Assembly (NCBI GenBank): GCA_938006875.1
Contig: CALLMJ010000041.1
Span: forward strand, 1 to 32,039
DNA length: 32,039 bases
Direction of reading: 5' to 3'
Source: an uncultured Bacteroidia bacterium
GTDB lineage: Bacteria > Bacteroidota > Bacteroidia > J057 > CALLMJ01
The position numbers were made by a program, and so were the translations under genes. Below the pieces are notes generated by a model, which had not been told where the DNA came from, searched no databases, and saw nothing but the letters and a program-made list of their open reading frames with translations. Positions 6,925 to 30,820 of this stretch are shown here, piece after piece (position 1 is the first letter of the stretch; each line of letters opens with the position of its first letter).

Positions 6925-7608
6925 TTATTCAGCACTTATAATTTCTACTTCAAAAATCAAAGTAGCATTAGGAGGAATAATATTCCCTGCCCCTGCGCTT
7001 CCATAACCTAAATCTGCTGGAATTTTTAATATTCCTTTGCCACCTACATTGAATAAAGGAATGCCTTCATCCCAGCCTTTTATTACTCGCCCCATACCTA
7101 ATGGAAATTCAAACGGTTGTCCTCTATCATAAGAACTATCAAACACAGTTCCATCTTCAAGGCTTCCTTTATAATGAACTTTCACATTTTTACCTTTCTC
7201 TGGTTTTTTGCCATTTCCTTGTTGTATAATTTTATAACCTAACCCTGAAGCTGTGATTTGAAATCCAATCATTTTTTGGGCTTTTTCCCATTGTTTCAAA
7301 CCTTCATTAATAAAAACAGCTTCTGAAGCAGTAATTTTACTTTTTTTATTCACTTCTAACCATTCAATATAAGTTTTTGTATCTAAATTTTGTGGAAAAC
7401 TTAATAAAACCTGATTTTTGGGCGTGCAATCTCTGCATAAATAAAAACCTGTTTCTTTTTCAAAAAACATTACGCAATAACCCTTCATTGCTTCGTTTTG
7501 ATATACGTAATCTGGTGATTTTCCATTAATTTTGCATTCGCATTTTTGTGAATAAACCATGTTGAAACTAAAAATCAACATCATTACAAATAATAACTGA
7601 ACTTTCAT
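6925..7608 (-). CDS. Exported FKBP-type peptidyl-prolyl isomerase
   Basis: 227 residues. Residues 1-20 are a signal peptide ending VYS-Q. The first half (about 21-115) carries several Cys residues (KCECK, GYCVMFF, LCRDC) and is not a domain I recognise. Residues about 116-227 are a complete FKBP domain: VKVHYKGSLEDGTVFDSSYD, PFEFPLGMGRVIKGWDEGI, LKIPADLGYGSAGAGNIIPP and TLIFEVEI, with the usual aromatic pocket residues. It should speed cis-trans proline isomerisation of exported proteins in the periplasm or at the outer membrane. It is first in a two-gene unit with the aminotransferase, with no obvious metabolic link. Confidence 0.9.
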   Translation of the reverse strand: MKVQLLFVMMLIFSFNMVYSQKCECKINGKSPDYVYQNEAMKGYCVMFFEKETGFYLCRDCTPKNQVLLSFPQNLDTKTYIEWLEVNKKSKITASEAVFINEGLKQWEKAQKMIGFQITASGLGYKIIQQGNGKKPEKGKNVKVHYKGSLEDGTVFDSSYDRGQPFEFPLGMGRVIKGWDEGIPLFNVGGKGILKIPADLGYGSAGAGNIIPPNATLIFEVEIISAE

Positions 7609-7638
7609 TGATTTATAAACTTTTTAATTAATTACTGC

Positions 7639-7669
7639 CAAAATTATAACATTTATCATGAATTTCCAA
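7639..7669 (-). promoter_or_regulatory. Promoter of the FKBP-ilvE unit
   Basis: Minus strand: TTG (7669-7667), 20 bases, TAATTTTG (7646-7639). The -33 element lies inside the first codons of the divergent xerD gene, so the two divergent genes share about 50 bp. Confidence 0.5.
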
Positions 7670-8557
7670 GAATTATTTCAAAACTACTATTTTTTTCTAC
7701 AAATTGAAAAAGGTTTATCTACTCACACTTTAAATGCCTATCAGTCTGATATAGAGAAATTTATTAAACATTTTCACGTTCAAAATATTGAGGATTTAAA
7801 ATCTTTGAATTATTTACAAATTCAAGAATATTTAATGAATTTGGAAGTCAATTATGAACTCAACAACTACTCTATTCATAGAAATTTAAGCAGTTTAAAC
7901 TCCTTTTTTAAATGGCTGGAATTAGAGGAATGGATTTCTAAAAACCCTTTTGAGTTAATTGATAGACCTAAAATCTATCGTCATATTCCAGAAGTTTTAT
8001 CTCTTTATGAAATAGACCAAATTTTAGAACAATGTAATATGAACGAACCTCTCGGCATTCGTAATCGTGCTATGTTAGAACTGGCTTATTCTTGCGGTTT
8101 ACGTGTCTCTGAATTAGTAGAATTTCCTTATCAAAATTATTTTCCTGAAGAAGAATTTATCCGTATAATAGGTAAAGGGAATAAAGAAAGGCTTATTCCG
8201 TTAGGTCAATCTGCAATAAAATACATTCAACTTTATTTAATAAACGTTAGGAATCATCAAACTGCTGAAAAAGGAAATGAAGGTTATTTATTTTTAAATC
8301 GCAGAGGAAAAAAATTAACCCGAAACATGTTTTTTTTAATTATCAAAGACTTAGCCCTAAAAGCGAATATTCAAAAGTCCATTAGTCCGCATACTTTTAG
8401 ACATTCGTTTGCTACGCATTTAATTGAGAACGGAGCAGATTTAAGAGCGGTTCAAGAAATGTTAGGGCATTCTTCTATCACAACCACAGAAATTTATTTA
8501 CATTTAGATAAAAGCTACTTAAAAGAAGTTCATAAAACTTTTCATCCAAGAAAATAA
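7658..8557 (+). CDS. xerD: Tyrosine recombinase XerD/XerC
   Basis: 299 residues, the usual Xer length. The N-terminal SAM-like core-binding domain (about 1-95) includes EKGLSTHTLNAYQSDIEKF. The catalytic domain has R149 (CGLRVSEL), K174 (GKGNKERLIPL), H245 and R248 (SPHTFRHSFATHL), H271 (MLGHSS) and the nucleophile Y280 (TTEIYLH), so the full catalytic set is present. Xer recombinases resolve chromosome dimers at dif during division. No integrase-like N-terminal arm-binding domain or adjacent prophage is seen, so the housekeeping role is likely; XerD is chosen over XerC on overall look and is less certain. Confidence 0.9.
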   Translation: MNFQELFQNYYFFLQIEKGLSTHTLNAYQSDIEKFIKHFHVQNIEDLKSLNYLQIQEYLMNLEVNYELNNYSIHRNLSSLNSFFKWLELEEWISKNPFELIDRPKIYRHIPEVLSLYEIDQILEQCNMNEPLGIRNRAMLELAYSCGLRVSELVEFPYQNYFPEEEFIRIIGKGNKERLIPLGQSAIKYIQLYLINVRNHQTAEKGNEGYLFLNRRGKKLTRNMFFLIIKDLALKANIQKSISPHTFRHSFATHLIENGADLRAVQEMLGHSSITTTEIYLHLDKSYLKEVHKTFHPRK

Positions 8558-12380: not shown

Positions 12381-12968
12381 ATGGCAGAATTACTATCCAT
12401 AAAAGAAGCAAGCCAGTGGGCTAGTGAATATTTAGGAAAAAATGTTACCACTTCTAATATCTCCTATCTTATTCAATACGGAAGAATAAAAAAAATAGGT
12501 GAGAATGGCTCAATTCAAGTTATTAAAGAAGAATTAATCAATTATTATAAAAACCAAAAGAAATCACGTCAAGAAGAATGGAAGGAACAGCTTGGCGAAG
12601 ATTTGAACTGGGCTTTGTCATTTGAGCAATACAAAGAAGCCGAGACTACAAAGCACGTCCATAGACTTCATCCATACAAAGGAAAATTTATTCCGCAGTT
12701 AGTTGAATATTTCCTTGACAACCACACCGATAAATTCAAGACGGAAGTTTATTTCAAGCCGGGGGACATTGTTTACGACCCGTTTTCAGGGAGCGGAACC
12801 ACTATGGTTCAGGCTTGCGAGTTGGGAATTCATGCCGTTGGTAATGATGTTTCTGCCTTTAATGCTATGATTGGAAATTGCAAGGTTACGAAATATGACT
12901 TAGTGGATGTTCAAACTGAAATAAACAGAACAGTATATTTAGAATCAAAATATAAATTTGCAGTATAA
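12381..12968 (+). pseudogene. Truncated HTH-containing DNA methyltransferase (N-terminal third)
   Basis: 195 residues. Residues 1-58 look like an excisionase/MerR-type helix-turn-helix (SIKEASQWASEYLGK, NISYLIQYGRIKKIG). Residues 92-141 carry HVHRLHPYKGKFIPQLVEYF and the S-adenosylmethionine motif DPFSGSGTT (133-141). Proteins with this arrangement normally run to about 500 residues and hold the catalytic SPPY motif later; here the recognisable sequence stops near residue 183 (base 12929) and a short AT-rich tail ends at a TAA. With motif IV missing it should not methylate DNA. Composition supports a junction: 27 of 60 bases from 12721 are G+C, against 13 of 60 from 13141 (hand counts). It may still be translated, since its stop overlaps the next start (TAATG). 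It is probably the methylase half of an older R-M system whose nuclease tail is at 14958-15151. Confidence 0.75.
12953..12960 (+). promoter_or_regulatory. Candidate internal promoter (-7 element) of the R-M cassette
   Basis: TAAATTTG fits TAnnTTTG and lies 7 bases before the ATG of the 71-residue gene, so transcription would begin almost at the start codon. No clear -33 TTG is visible at the proper distance. It lies just inside the inserted AT-rich segment. Confidence 0.4.
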
Positions 12969-13183
12969 TGAAAACTTTTGAAGTTACTTTATTAAAATCA
13001 TACATTGTGAAGATTCAAGCTGAAAATGAATTGAATGCAAAGAAGTATTCTGAATTTTTTACAAATGACATTAAAAATATATCAACCAATTTTGATGAAA
13101 TAATATATAATTTTAAAATTGAAAACATTGATTGTAAAGTTAATGAAGCAATTGAAGTTAACGAAATTTATGAAAACAATTGA
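12968..13183 (+). CDS. Small 71-residue protein of the R-M cassette
   Basis: Starts on the A of the preceding TAA (TAATG) and overlaps the methyltransferase start at 13170 by 14 bases, so it is positioned for translational coupling on both sides. The sequence begins MKTFEVTLLKSYIVKIQAEN, then an amphipathic stretch (NELNAKKYSEFFTN) and a second strand region (NFKIENIDC), a beta-alpha-beta look with acidic ends. There is no visible helix-turn-helix, so it does not look like a classical C-protein controller. I do not know its function. Its base composition and codon use match the two genes that follow, so it probably arrived with them as one unit; a role tuning or assisting the R-M pair is inference only. 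Confidence 0.6.
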   Translation: MKTFEVTLLKSYIVKIQAENELNAKKYSEFFTNDIKNISTNFDEIIYNFKIENIDCKVNEAIEVNEIYENN

Positions 13184-14045
13184 TACAAAAATCTTATTAG
13201 GTGATTGTAAAGATGTTTTAAAAACAATTGATGACAACTCAATAGATTTAATTGTAACATCACCGCCATATGCAGATAGAAGAAAAAATACATATGGAGG
13301 CATTAAGCCTGAAAAATATGTTGATTGGTTTTTAGGTATTTCAAAAGAATTATTAAGAGTTTTAAAACCAACAGGAACATTTATTTTAAATATTAAAGAA
13401 AAAGCAGAAAACGGAGAACGACATACATATGTGATTGAATTAATTCTAGCGTTAAGAAAGCAAGGGTGGTTATGGACAGAAGAATATATTTGGTGTAAAA
13501 AAAATTCATATCCTGGGAAATGGCCTAATAGATTTCGAGATGCATGGGAAAGATGTATTCAATTTAATAAGTCAAAAAAATTTAATATGTATCAGGATGA
13601 AGTTATGGTGCCTATTGGGGATTGGGTAAACGAAAGATTAAAAAAACTTAGTGAAACTGATAAAATTAGAGATAATTCAAAAAATGGGAGTGGCTTTGGA
13701 AAAAAAATTTCTAATTGGATTGGTCGTGAAATGGTCTATCCAAATAATGTTTTGAATTTTGCTACAGTTTGTAATAATAAAAATCATAGTGCTGCTTTTC
13801 CTGAAGAATTACCAGAATGGTTTATTAAATTATTTACAAAAGAATTTGATACTGTCTTAGACCCTTTTGTTGGTTCTGGAACAACTTTACATGTTGCAAG
13901 AAGAATGAAACGAAATTCAATTGGAATTGATATTATTCCGGAATATATTGAAATGATCAAAAAAGAAATAAATGAAAGTGAATCTATCTTATTTGAACCA
14001 AAAATAGAATATGACACAATTAAAGAAAAGAAAAATGAAATATGA
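13170..14045 (+). CDS. Type II DNA methyltransferase, beta-class (SPPY motif)
   Basis: 291 residues from ATG 13170; the frame is open further up, but homology starts at MKTIDTKILLGDC. Motif IV is TSPPY (30-34) and the SAM-binding motif I DPFVGSGTT (231-239) lies at the C-terminal end, so the motif order is that of beta-class amino-methyltransferases. A TSPPY motif is most often seen in N4-cytosine enzymes, though N6-adenine is not excluded. Between them is a conserved block (YPGKWPNRFRDAWERC, SGFGKKISNWIGREMVYPNN, NHSAAFPEELPEWFIKLFT) shared by Type II methylases that protect against a linked nuclease. The gene overlaps the 71-residue gene in front and the nuclease gene behind (11 bases). It is complete and looks functional; the target site cannot be read from sequence. 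Confidence 0.9.
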   Translation: MKTIDTKILLGDCKDVLKTIDDNSIDLIVTSPPYADRRKNTYGGIKPEKYVDWFLGISKELLRVLKPTGTFILNIKEKAENGERHTYVIELILALRKQGWLWTEEYIWCKKNSYPGKWPNRFRDAWERCIQFNKSKKFNMYQDEVMVPIGDWVNERLKKLSETDKIRDNSKNGSGFGKKISNWIGREMVYPNNVLNFATVCNNKNHSAAFPEELPEWFIKLFTKEFDTVLDPFVGSGTTLHVARRMKRNSIGIDIIPEYIEMIKKEINESESILFEPKIEYDTIKEKKNEI

Positions 14046-14952
14046 TGAAGAAAATTTGATTGTATATCTCTGTAAGAAAGTTCAAAAAATTGGGAACACA
14101 TCTGCGAAAGCAATTGCCGATCATTTTGATTGTTCTTTAATCAAATTTACCAGTTTTGAAAATAATTTTACGCATTTTAAGAATTCAAGTGGAAACCCTA
14201 AACTTTCAAATGAACAAATAAGTGAACTAAAAAAGATTGTAAGCCTATACATTAAAGATAGTTATAAACCAATTAGTGAACTCTGGATATCAGTTTTAAT
14301 CAGAGATTTTGTTCGTCATAGTATTGAAGAATTACAAAAAACTCAATTAGAAAGTTTGCTTATTAATCCTTTTTTGGTAAAAGCATTTGGCTTTGATGAT
14401 CATAAAGAAGTTGTAACTTTTTATTTTTATCAGAAAATTACTCGTTCAATTGTAACTTCTTGGGGTTTTACCGTTGAAGGATTATTATTATGTAGTGGTG
14501 CCGAACATTCTGATATTCCTGGTTTTGATATGAAAGTTAAAAGAAACAATAAGAATTATCAATTTCAAATAAAATCAAGTCCTAATACAATGAGTATTGA
14601 ACAAGTGAGACAATTGAATACACACATAAAAAACATAAAAGATAAAATTTCAAATATTCCTATTCTAGGTATGACTTACGGGACAAAAGAACAAATAAAT
14701 TCACAAATTCAATCTACTTTAACTGGTTACCCAAAATCAACTATGATAGGAAAAGAATTATGGGATTTTATTGCAGGTGAAGTAGGTTATTGTGATAAAT
14801 TATTGAATCTTATTGATGAAATAATGAAAGAAGAACCAACGAAATTTTCCGAGGAAATTGAAGTTAAACGTCAAACATTAATATCAGACTGGGAGTCTAG
14901 TTTTGGTACTGGTAAAGATTCTATTGATTTAGTTTTACAAAAATATTTGTAA
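14035..14952 (+). CDS. Type II restriction endonuclease, PD-(D/E)XK-like
   Basis: 305 residues from ATG 14035, which overlaps the methyltransferase stop; an upstream in-frame ATG at 14011 is less likely. The N-terminal part (about 1-140) is helical with no motif I recognise and may bind DNA. The probable catalytic core is VEGLLLCSGAEHSDIPGFDMKVKR... with E157, D165 and a Q178-I179-K180 triad on the strand YQFQIKSSP, followed by TMSIEQVRQLNTHIK. This resembles a PD-(D/E)XK site in which the usual acidic residue of ExK is Gln. Position next to and overlapping a Type II methylase makes a restriction enzyme the natural reading. The specificity is unknown. A Mrr-like or repair nuclease is a less likely alternative. 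Confidence 0.8.
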   Translation: MKYDEENLIVYLCKKVQKIGNTSAKAIADHFDCSLIKFTSFENNFTHFKNSSGNPKLSNEQISELKKIVSLYIKDSYKPISELWISVLIRDFVRHSIEELQKTQLESLLINPFLVKAFGFDDHKEVVTFYFYQKITRSIVTSWGFTVEGLLLCSGAEHSDIPGFDMKVKRNNKNYQFQIKSSPNTMSIEQVRQLNTHIKNIKDKISNIPILGMTYGTKEQINSQIQSTLTGYPKSTMIGKELWDFIAGEVGYCDKLLNLIDEIMKEEPTKFSEEIEVKRQTLISDWESSFGTGKDSIDLVLQKYL

Positions 14953-19399: not shown

Positions 19400-19561
19400 T
19401 TTATAAAGCAGAAGTTATGCGTAGGGCACAATTCGATAAAACTTATTGACCACAGAATGGCACTGTCTTTTTCCATTTTTGAAAAAAGTGGAAAAAGGAT
19501 TGTGTTATTTTGAGCTTGCCGAAATGCAGAAAAGAAATGGAAGCCGATGCAAGCGATACCC
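19400..19561 (-). repeat. Dispersed structured repeat, copy 1 (decayed)
   Basis: Reading the minus strand from 19561 (GGGTATCGCTTGC...) this matches the plus strand of 28780-28935 over about 150 bases. Near-identical cores include GCATTTCGG, CACAATCCTTT, CAGTGCCA, TGGTCAAT and ATCGAATT. The centre is a hairpin with arms TTTTTCCA and TGGAAAAA; a second small stem is CCA...TGG. It has lost the terminal hairpins of copy 2. It lies between the HupE gene end and the cysS start and reads toward cysS. Function unknown; REP/MITE-like non-autonomous element is the likely class. Confidence 0.7.
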
Positions 19562-19576
19562 ATTAAAAATTATAAA

Positions 19577-20134
19577 TTAAAAAGGTATTCTTTCAAATGC
19601 CCAGATGGAACTCACGATTAAAGTTAAAATGTACAGAATTTTCCTAAATTTAAGAGGATATGATATGAAAGCATTTATAAGTAAAATGGTAGTAATCCAA
19701 AGAATTTGAGCTATTTCTAAGCCTAAATTAAAAGGCAATAAAGTATTCCATACCATAAATTCCGTATTTTCTAAAAGGCTTTTTAGTAGACCCGAAAATC
19801 CGTAACCATGAATAAACCCAAAAAACAATACCAATAAATAAAGACTTTTTTTTAGTGAAATTTGCAGTAAATTAAAAATAGCAGTTAAACCAATAGAAAA
19901 AGCTATCAAAAATTCAATCCAAGAGATAAACTGAGGGTTTGTTTGAGTATAAACAGCGATAGCCAAAGTAAGGGAATGTCCTAATGTAAAAGCGGTAGCT
20001 AACCAAAAAAGTTTTTTCCAATGATGAATGGAATAAGGTAAGGCTAACATTAAGATAAAGAGGATATGGTCGGGTGCTTTAATATCCAACAAATGTTCAA
20101 AACCTAATTTGAGGTAAATCCAAAATTCTTGCAT
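19577..20134 (-). CDS. HupE/UreJ-family membrane protein
   Basis: 185 residues with about six hydrophobic spans. Family signatures are GFEHLLDIKAPDHILFIL at the N-terminus, FTLGHSLTL, FGFIHGYGFSGLL and FNLGLEIAQ; the repeated His residues inside membrane spans are typical of HupE/UreJ proteins. Relatives have been linked to nickel or cobalt uptake for hydrogenase or urease, but in Bacteroidota they are often found alone, and no hydrogenase or urease gene is here. Metal transport is therefore plausible but not shown. The start at 20134 follows a hairpin terminator, and no consensus promoter was seen. Confidence 0.85.
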   Translation of the reverse strand: MQEFWIYLKLGFEHLLDIKAPDHILFILMLALPYSIHHWKKLFWLATAFTLGHSLTLAIAVYTQTNPQFISWIEFLIAFSIGLTAIFNLLQISLKKSLYLLVLFFGFIHGYGFSGLLKSLLENTEFMVWNTLLPFNLGLEIAQILWITTILLINAFISYPLKFRKILYILTLIVSSIWAFERIPF

Positions 20135-28710: not shown

Positions 28711-28717
28711 ATGCTCC

Positions 28718-30820
28718 ATGAAAATAGAAGAATTAGAATATAAAGGAATATATAGGCATGTTTCTCATGCTGCTCATTCGGGTCGCGCTGTTTCAAGTTT
28801 CACTTCGTTTCAGCATTTCGGTGAACTCTATGTATCACAATCCTTTGAATGCTCATACTTCACGATTAAAGGCAGTGCCACTTCGTGGTCAATGAGTATT
28901 ATCGAATTAAGTCCTTCGTATCCTTCACGCACACCACGCAATAAAATTGCGATTAAAGATTTACATCATACCTTAATCACCATCATACTGTTATTATTTT
29001 CCTTACTTCACGCCCAAGAAAAACCTGATTCTATTAACCCACGAGTAGTTCAATTTACTCAACAAAATATTGATTTTCATAATTTTTATTCAGATAGTTT
29101 TAAGTTTAATCCCTCAGAATTAATTTTTTGGGATAATGCCGATATTATGCTCTACGATTATGTAAGAAGCCTTGGGCAGGTCGGTAAACCCCATGAAGTT
29201 TATCAAAATAGCCTTCCTATACGCTATAACAACGACCCATTCTTACAACAAAATCAAGTGTATTTTTGGGATATTGAAAAACAATCCTTATTTTTAAATA
29301 CTCGTACTTCGTTTATTCGTGCTAAATTTAATCAAAGCGGTTTTAAAACTCAAAATTTAGGATTAATACTTTCACGAAACATCAATCCATTTTGGAACGT
29401 AACTATAAAATCTCAAAGAAGAACTTCTGTGGGTGCCTATTTGAATAATGTTACAGATCATTGGAATATTCATTTAACTACCCATTTTTTAAGCAGAAAT
29501 CAAAGACATTTTCTGGGTTTAGCAACTATGCTTCATGATTTAAAAGATAACCTGAATGGGGGTACTTTTCAAGATGGTTCTTACTCCTATGAAAACTCTT
29601 TTAATCAAAACGCTCAACCTATATTGCTGAGAGATGCTTCTTGGGTTCGTAAAGAAAAATCTTTGTTATCCCATTATTCTTACTTATTAAATCCCGATAC
29701 CACTAAACTGTATTTTGCATTACAAGCTCAACTAGGTTATCAATGGTACAAATGGACTATGCGGGATGAGCAAGTAGATAGTCTTTTGCTAACGAGAAGT
29801 ATTTTACATAATCCCTTTGGTTTTCGTATTATTAATACTTTGTTTCAAGAATACGAATTAGAAAAATATTTTGGAACAATGGGTTTTATAGTAAAAATTA
29901 ACTCTTTAAGAAATCGATTAGCTTTAAAAGTACTTCAAAATCAATATAAAGGTCAATTAATCGTTCAGCAGCAAAGAAATTTTCAATTAGAAAATCTTAC
30001 GCACTTTCAATGGTCTAACTTTTACATAGAATCACGCCAATGGGTTCAAAATAGCGATATTTTTTCTTTATCCAATGAGCATTATGCCAAAGCAACCTAC
30101 CAAAACCAAGATAGTTTAAAAAATTGGAATTTAAGTTTTTGTATGGATTTTCAAAATCAAAATCCAAGTTTAAGAGACCGATATTCTATTTTTCAGTATT
30201 TTGAACGCAAACAAGATTTGAAAAATTTTCAAAAGATGTCATTTTTTTTAGAAACAGGTTTGGACAAAAAGAGTTGGCAAATTGAAGGAAAGTTTTTTTA
30301 TCATCAAATTTTTGGTGCAATTTATTTTAATTCACAAACAAAATTAGTTCAAAATTCTAATATGTGGATAAATTTTGGAAATGACATTAAGGCTCGTTAT
30401 CAATGGAAAAGTTACTTCATTAATGTACAATACACGGGATTTATAAATTCTCAAAATGTGTTAGGTTTATCTGATAGACTTCCCAAACATATAGTTTCTA
30501 TGAATTTGTTATACAATAAGTTACACTTCAAAAATCAAATAGAATTAAACTTTGAGTTAAAGAATAAATGGTTCTCAAAAACCCAAGCGTATTTATTTGA
30601 CCATTCAGGATTTTTTTGGTATCCTTATTTAGATGTAACACAAAAAGCAGTTTTAGTAAGTGATATTTACGGCTCCGCAAAATTCAAAAAAGCGGTTATC
30701 TTCATAAGATTCAATAATTTATGGGATGGTATTTTGTATCCAGGTTATTATACTTCCTATTATCATCCCATGGTTAATAGAAGTTTGAATTTTGGAGTAG
30801 CTTGGGATTTTACAGATTAA
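28718..30820 (+). CDS. Putative porin (Porin_10-like) with repeat-derived 5' end
   Basis: The open frame is 700 codons from ATG 28718, 7 bases after the TPR gene stop. Codons 13-78 lie inside the dispersed repeat (28755-28951). The real signal peptide is residues about 80-102 (IKDLHHTLITIILLLFSLLH-AQ), so either the protein starts at the repeat's ATG 28892 (residue 59), giving a 44-residue basic-headed signal peptide, or at 28718 with a long N-terminal extension. The mature part has the layout of Bacteroidota putative porins: DNADIMLYDYVRSLGQVG, then YFWDIEKQSLFLNTRTSFIR, then strands such as LGLILSRNINPFWNVTIKSQ, FLSRNQRHFLGLATMLHDLK, and a final LNFGVAWDFTD barrel end. Predicted to sit in the outer membrane as a channel; substrate unknown. 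Confidence 0.8.
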   Translation: MKIEELEYKGIYRHVSHAAHSGRAVSSFTSFQHFGELYVSQSFECSYFTIKGSATSWSMSIIELSPSYPSRTPRNKIAIKDLHHTLITIILLLFSLLHAQEKPDSINPRVVQFTQQNIDFHNFYSDSFKFNPSELIFWDNADIMLYDYVRSLGQVGKPHEVYQNSLPIRYNNDPFLQQNQVYFWDIEKQSLFLNTRTSFIRAKFNQSGFKTQNLGLILSRNINPFWNVTIKSQRRTSVGAYLNNVTDHWNIHLTTHFLSRNQRHFLGLATMLHDLKDNLNGGTFQDGSYSYENSFNQNAQPILLRDASWVRKEKSLLSHYSYLLNPDTTKLYFALQAQLGYQWYKWTMRDEQVDSLLLTRSILHNPFGFRIINTLFQEYELEKYFGTMGFIVKINSLRNRLALKVLQNQYKGQLIVQQQRNFQLENLTHFQWSNFYIESRQWVQNSDIFSLSNEHYAKATYQNQDSLKNWNLSFCMDFQNQNPSLRDRYSIFQYFERKQDLKNFQKMSFFLETGLDKKSWQIEGKFFYHQIFGAIYFNSQTKLVQNSNMWINFGNDIKARYQWKSYFINVQYTGFINSQNVLGLSDRLPKHIVSMNLLYNKLHFKNQIELNFELKNKWFSKTQAYLFDHSGFFWYPYLDVTQKAVLVSDIYGSAKFKKAVIFIRFNNLWDGILYPGYYTSYYHPMVNRSLNFGVAWDFTD
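28755..28951 (+). repeat. Dispersed structured repeat, copy 2 (fuller)
   Basis: About 197 bp with hairpins at both ends: GCATG-TTTCT-CATGC (28756-28770) and CGCAAT-AAA-ATTGCG (28937-28951). Inside are CCAC-TTC-GTGG (near 28879-28889) and a CCTTT...AAAGG stem (near 28842-28872) at the place where copy 1 has TTTTTCCA...TGGAAAAA. Higher G+C than the flanks. Homologous to 19400-19561 on the other strand. It lies across the 5' end of the porin frame and has no stop in that frame. Confidence 0.7.

Follow-up and report, generated by a model that had tools for sequence, protein, structure and literature searches.

The locus considered here raises the question of what kind of sequence can recur, together with its hairpins, on both strands of one genomic stretch and at the same time lie within the 5' end of a putative porin gene. 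The window (the whole stretch of 32,039 nucleotides that was analysed) carries one such segment near its end and a second, more diverged one on the reverse strand, and the original prediction had described them as a two-copy dispersed repeat of REP/MITE-like or structured RNA character.

Two copies of a structured element in the window

The similarity on which that description was based is real: 28755-28951 on the forward strand matches 19400-19561 on the reverse strand over 54 nt at 80% and 49 nt at 78% complementarity, and the long identical words CACAATCCTTT, CAGTGCCA and TGGTCAAT are present in both copies. The central stems also differ as had been reported, with CCTTT/AAAGG in copy 2 and TTTTTCCA/TGGAAAAA in copy 1. 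The interval proposed for copy 2 does contain the repeat, but its 3' boundary overshoots the end of the covariance-model match by 20 nt and takes in a CGCAAT/ATTGCG hairpin that is missing from the alignment of other copies. Thus, of the two terminal hairpins assigned to this copy, GCATG/CATGC is confirmed as the 5' arm of the element, occupying the slot of the family's CCC..GGG arm, while the other stands outside it. Copy 2 begins with GGCATG, a degenerate form of GGGCGTG, and ends with TTCACGC. In its central arm, 85.6% of alignment cells are paired, the apical part varies among copies, and the innermost pair switches between UA and GC in 16 copies. The small CCAC-TTC-GTGG hairpin opens a module missing from short forms of the element (e.g., L011, L017, L027, L028, and L030).

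Table 1. Features of the two element copies and their surroundings in the window
Feature	Position	Strand	Evidence or remark
Element copy 2 (the finding)	28752..28931	+	R1 model match 144.9 bits, E 1.7e-35
Element copy 1, more diverged	19407..19596	-	R1 model match 93.9 bits, E 7.5e-22
5' hairpin arm GCATG/CATGC	28756..28770	+	sequence, predicted fold, helix 2 of alignment A2
Central arm of copy 2, CCTTT 28842-28846 with AAAGG 28868-28872	28842..28872	+	helix 5 of A2
Central arm of copy 1, TTTTTCCA 19496-19489 with TGGAAAAA 19475-19468	19468..19496	-	sequence
Small hairpin CCAC-TTC-GTGG	28878..28888	+	sequence, alignment of copies
Hairpin CGCAAT/ATTGCG, just outside the element	28937..28951	+	private to copy 2
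Putative porin gene (Porin_10) with frame through the element	28718..30820	+	Pfam PF14121, E 5e-23
In-element ATG in the porin frame, candidate alternative start to 28718	28892..28894	+	40 nt before element end
Filled versus empty site interval	28711..29014	+	304 bp here vs 62 bp in G001

Copy number, boundaries and genomic context

The count of two copies proved far too low. BLASTN gave 40 matches in the own genome (2.87 Mb, one MAG), the second best with E 4e-31, and a covariance model (R1) built from 26 own-genome copies finds 113 copies at E<=1e-3, so that the repeat match is far from chance. The search of genome and relatives that had been proposed therefore yields 113 own copies, and it adds further copies in other Bacteroidota. 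Defined ends are sharp in the flank profile of the 71 best copies, which reads TTATTT, then GGGCGTG...CTCACGC, then WTA, with flanks flat past about 10 bases from the element and element lengths of about 125-210 bp. The arms between the ends comprise CCC..GGG, a GCCGAAG/CTTCGGC-based arm, a CCTTTT/AAAAGG-based arm with a variable tip, and the CCAC/GTGG module. The terminal inverted repeat is GCGTG/CACGC only (helix 1, 75.8% of cells paired), and the own copies are old, with a median best-pair identity of 82%.

More than 100 copies adjoin unrelated genes in both orientations. The stop codon of a gene pointing at the 5' end of an element is usually 3-20 nt away, and among elements with co-directional neighbours 31 lie along the genes and 10 against them (p=0.0015, 71-copy context). 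A preference for T-rich left flanks may lie behind both this orientation bias and the signal-peptide sites described below.

Kinship with Flavo-1

R1 also matches copies in G001, the sister species, and in three f46 genomes, which belong to another family, and the frame common to these relatives was searched as the pattern GGGCGTGYCCCT N5-24 GGGTCGGGCT ... ATCCCTCACGC. In full, the end frame consists of GGGCGTGYCCC, a hairpin, and GGGTCGGGCT...ATCCCTCACGC; it occurs across Bacteroidota (Flavobacterium, Epilithonimonas, Chryseobacterium, Pedobacter, Aquimarina, Odoribacter, Tannerellaceae, Cytophagaceae, and others) and also in Treponema and other Spirochaetes. A reversed control pattern gave 0 matches in 395 genomes. 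SKYG108 (G098) holds dozens of copies that are up to 99% identical. Eleven IMG/VR viral contigs (L243-L253) carry the frame as well, several of them with almost identical flanks and an end that reads CCCTCACGTG, and a search of plasmids for copies gave no match.

Neither the window nor four own copies had a credible Rfam match, and a literature search by sequence word returned unrelated matches only. The Rfam model RF01705 has 0 matches in the window, and its best score in the own genome is 17.6 bits against a gathering threshold of 42 bits. In Flavobacterium, however, RF01705 matches locus L124 at 1409-1513 with 50.3 bits, other copies in the genus scoring 32-40 bits, below the 42-bit cut-off. 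R1, built without Flavobacterium copies, matches L124 at 1413-1535 (E 1.3e-7). Because the two models meet at the same site and the frame is common, the own copies are homologous to Flavo-1 loci. The Flavobacterium versions are Rfam's orphan Flavo-1 RNA (RF01705), and the own copies are a branch of the Flavo-1 superfamily beyond the reach of the Rfam model. The two share the end sequences and the inner block (reverse strand TGCGTGAGGGAT...AGCCCGACCC), whereas the own-genome copies have extra arms and score under the Rfam cut-off, and the element behaves as a mobile repeat rather than an RNA gene. In the Flavobacterium copies examined, the Rfam match covers CTCACGC to the inner GGGTCGGGCT block and omits the GGGCGTG end and the first arm. 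One Flavobacterium copy (L123) has an extra stretch, CCCGAGCGAAGCGAATAGACGAGG, near its 3' end, placed after the last arm and ahead of the conserved CCCTCACGC end, which we regard as another sign of modular growth. Neither this kinship nor the in-frame insertions described below were foreseen in the original prediction.

Filled and empty sites and differing arms at fixed sites

Seven Flavobacterium element sites were searched in 250 genomes of the genus, and four of these sites were aligned in detail, the comparisons being between species rather than strains. At the L115 site, three species carry the element and at least three others (L312, L324, and L327) lack it; in L320 the left junction is empty, and the right side did not align. 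Empty relatives were found for the L117, L120, and L123 sites too. The site of copy 2 itself is empty in G001, where two genes overlap (TAATG); the search for orthologous sites in this species covered about 1.3 Mb of stretches. At a further G001 locus (L372, C14), orthologous to G000 C109:9214, a short remnant GGCGTGCCCTTTTGTGTTTTACACGC keeps both ends while the interior is gone. In the SKYG108 genus, the order of genes is interrupted at the elements tested, so that empty-site comparison is uninformative there.

At two Flavobacterium sites (L120/L318/L332 and L117/L321/L326), species have the same flanks and both ends in common but carry wholly different arms. These interiors could instead stem from independent insertions into a hot spot, for which the target preference for T-rich sequence behind stop codons provides a rationale; yet the species with different arms at the first site (L120/L318/L332) share the flank bases CACGCATTTACGT, which other species with an empty site either lack or replace by unrelated sequence, and independent insertion is accordingly considered an unlikely explanation, with arm exchange preferred.

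From these sites we infer that the element has moved at the DNA level by the action of an enzyme. No offset or length stands out as a target-site duplication in three copy sets. A repeat unit of about 600 bp in SKYG108 was considered as an autonomous form and rejected, as no ORF longer than 98 aa lies inside it. In the f46 genomes (L125:4940-5540 and 7424-8000 in SKYG108; many G131 contigs), such units of about 600 bp are ended by the element and lie in inverted pairs separated by AT-rich noncoding spacers; they fill the intergenic gaps at which the order of genes is interrupted between species.

Folding, covariation and the RNA question

The view of the element as a non-autonomous, structured, dispersed repeat was borne out, with paired substitutions in excess of shuffled controls. 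Positions paired in the model form standard pairs in 81% of cases, compared with 29-45% for slid partners. Both-side changes number 94 cells against 56 +/- 5.8 after shuffling (0 of 500 shuffles reach 94), in an alignment that was fitted to the model and hence leans towards structure; RNAalifold, run without model fit, gives -24 against -11 +/- 2.5 for shuffled columns.

Such structure invites the reading of Flavo-1 as annotated, namely that copies are kept for their fold as functional regulatory or small RNAs; Rfam classes RF01705 as gene/sRNA. The excess of compensatory changes agrees with this reading, as does the better RNA folding of the minus strand, relative to the plus strand, in SKYG108 and other genomes, the Flavo-1 strand being the better folder in these copies. 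An RNA role is therefore conceivable in those genomes. Flavo-1 was also scored as a likely RNA by Weinberg et al. 2010 (PMC2864571). The own copies, however, show no clear preference for G.U over A.C on either strand: the model alignment contains 208 G.T and 155 A.C cells, 34 of the former at one fixed position, and a fold scoring both wobbles alike contains 186 and 172. Near-equal departures of this kind are expected from the decay of DNA structure, and a folding-energy test found no difference between strands in these copies; a structured-RNA role, as had been suggested for them, is thus not borne out. The presence of more than 100 copies beside unrelated genes in both orientations and the filled and empty orthologous sites likewise speak against it. 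In the F. psychrophilum transcriptome, moreover, Flavo-1 matches lie sense or antisense indifferently, and many fall outside transcribed regions (PMC9723704). Retention as a functional RNA is consequently judged improbable, and the repeat is classed as mobile DNA, not as an RNA linked to a gene.

Relation to REP elements

Movement by a REP-associated Y1 transposase (RAYT), as proposed originally, would fit the palindromic arms, the lack of a target-site duplication, and the T-rich left flank, all of which resemble HUH/Y1 insertion, as well as the paired inverted copies in f46 genomes. High copy number and a position as extragenic palindromes close to stop codons are likewise shared with REP/BIME sequences. 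The search for an autonomous partner, which covered Y1 only, nevertheless found no PF01797 protein in G000, G001, G059, G098, G131, or G349 (including this genome, the sister species, and the SKYG108 genome with its recent copies), although controls were detected. Furthermore, REPs are defined by a 20-40 bp palindrome with a GTAG/CGTC tag, while the element lacks the tag, is several times longer, and has fixed asymmetric ends (GGGCGTG/CTCACGC). A REP/BIME-type origin is therefore very improbable.

Insertion into N-terminal coding sequence

Among the own-genome copies, 28 have a clear same-direction downstream gene, and 11 of them, including copy 2, interrupt N-terminal coding sequence, an interruption being defined by the lack of any ATG of the gene within 150 nt past the element; these in-frame interruptions were observed in one genome, a single MAG. 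All 11 elements are open in the frame of the gene throughout, with an in-frame ATG 1-65 nt upstream, whereas of the 22 alternative frames, two per element, just 3 are open (Fisher p=1.9e-6). Ten of the 11 genes have a hydrophobic signal-peptide core, as judged by eye and hydropathy, that comes after the element end or overlaps it. The interrupted genes encode Porin_10 (window), M28 peptidase, di-haem peroxidase (CCP_MauG), LysM, DUF4249, and NHL proteins. The window porin reads MKIEELEYKGI, then the element, then TPRNKIAIKDLHHTLITIILLLFSLLHAQEK..., and its G001 ortholog has no element; junctions in other genes, with the element at the gap, are MRKL..FFISLASFLLLLLLNSC, MIKI..CLKVLLSFFLFFPFVNAQ, and MKRNIKTEARNVLKI..LTPKLRFLLFISSLFLISC. 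In the M28 peptidase gene, MIIGLINFFIVL precedes the element, and the G001 ortholog, without it, starts MIIGLIKYF...; the agreement of the MIIGLI start with MIIGLINFFIVL indicates that the sister species shares the start codon located upstream of the insertion. At C56:9343, the element end CTCATGCA also supplies an ATG giving MHPKNFVSILIFFSYSFAQ, in addition to the upstream ATG. Judging from the reading frames, in-element ATGs may serve as alternative starts in some genes, including this one and the window gene (28892).

All three frames are used on element entry and exit, which implies that no particular peptide is selected. The earlier statement that the repeat is not conserved as protein thus holds for the family, although copy 2 lies within the ORF 28718-30820 and is probably translated. 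More generally, the open frames suggest that the element is translated in the interrupted genes, as with Rickettsia palindromic elements, though without a conserved peptide; on the simplest reading, insertions that close the frame would have been purged and open ones translated. Removal of the element at the RNA level (intron-like) or ribosomal bypass, which would restore ordinary signal peptides (MRKL joined to FFISLASFLLLLLLNSC, MLKSI joined to LTLCFAFLFPFYSFAQ) and could draw on the multi-arm fold, is very improbable, since removal would not need the open frame found in 11 of 11 genes against 3 of 22 other frames, and an Rfam search of the window and four own copies gave no match to a known ribozyme family. 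No such interruption was seen in SKYG108 and Flavobacterium, where only 19 copies have a clear downstream gene. The G001 orthologs of C34:3413, C36:1947, and C1:12282 (L353, L396, and L403) have unusually long N-termini before the hydrophobic core, which are possibly decayed insertions.

Comparison with other mobile repeats and proposed mechanism

Rickettsia palindromic elements are mobile sequences of 100-200 bp, found both in intergenic DNA and as in-frame fusions within unrelated protein genes (PMC2229807, PMC10969869). The element resembles them in its in-frame insertion within protein genes, a likeness in behaviour without membership. It differs in that all three frames are in use here, while the Rickettsia elements are reported to code for a conserved peptide, and in that the inserts lie at N-termini, mostly of signal peptides. 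Bacterial MITEs (e.g., RUP, Correia, ERIC, and YPAL) are also small, non-autonomous, and sometimes fused to ORFs, with filled and empty orthologous sites, as found here; one predicted signal peptide is partly made up of a YPAL repeat (PMC2229807). The assignment to a classical MITE finds no support, however: the element has no target-site duplication, its terminal repeat is only 5 bp, and its arms vary while its ends persist.

We consider it probable that the repeat is non-autonomous mobile DNA of 100-200 bp, that it forms a diverged and enlarged branch within a Bacteroidota superfamily that includes Flavo-1, and that its in-frame insertions are translated. Directly observed are the copy number, the ends, the frame common with Flavo-1, the occurrence of both filled and empty sites, the difference in arms at fixed sites, and the open frames. 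The fixed parts would be the ends GGGCGTG...CTCACGC and the inner block (GGGTCGGGCT in the family consensus), with interchangeable hairpin arms. Insertion would take place behind T-rich TTATTT, mostly a few bases past a stop codon and without target-site duplication. As many genes here overlap or abut and signal-peptide codons are T-rich, some insertions would fall within the first codons of the downstream gene. Surviving insertions would keep the frame open, and translation would turn the element into an N-terminal stretch placed after the start and before the hydrophobic signal-peptide core, or the element would supply the start codon. As a bolder and tentative proposal, the element may be phylum-wide, with chromosomally fixed ends between which hairpin arms are swapped as cassettes by an undescribed enzyme or recombination route, and may have become, in one lineage, a portable N-terminal coding segment for exported proteins.

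Implications and further content of the window

Since 2010, Flavo-1 has figured as a likely RNA that lacks a function; if it is read as the core of a mobile repeat, its occurrence on either strand and often outside transcripts would be accounted for. This reading also makes the question testable, as close strains can be compared for the presence or absence of the element at a site and for the arms that it carries there. The signal-peptide insertions represent a natural experiment on how much extra sequence an export signal tolerates, and, like the Rickettsia elements, they show a palindromic repeat incorporated into coding sequence. Elsewhere in the window, a type II restriction-modification locus occupies 12381-14952, with two N6/N4 methylase ORFs (195 and 308 aa) and an EcoO109I-like endonuclease; the 195-aa methylase ORF matches the C-terminal part of the profile only.
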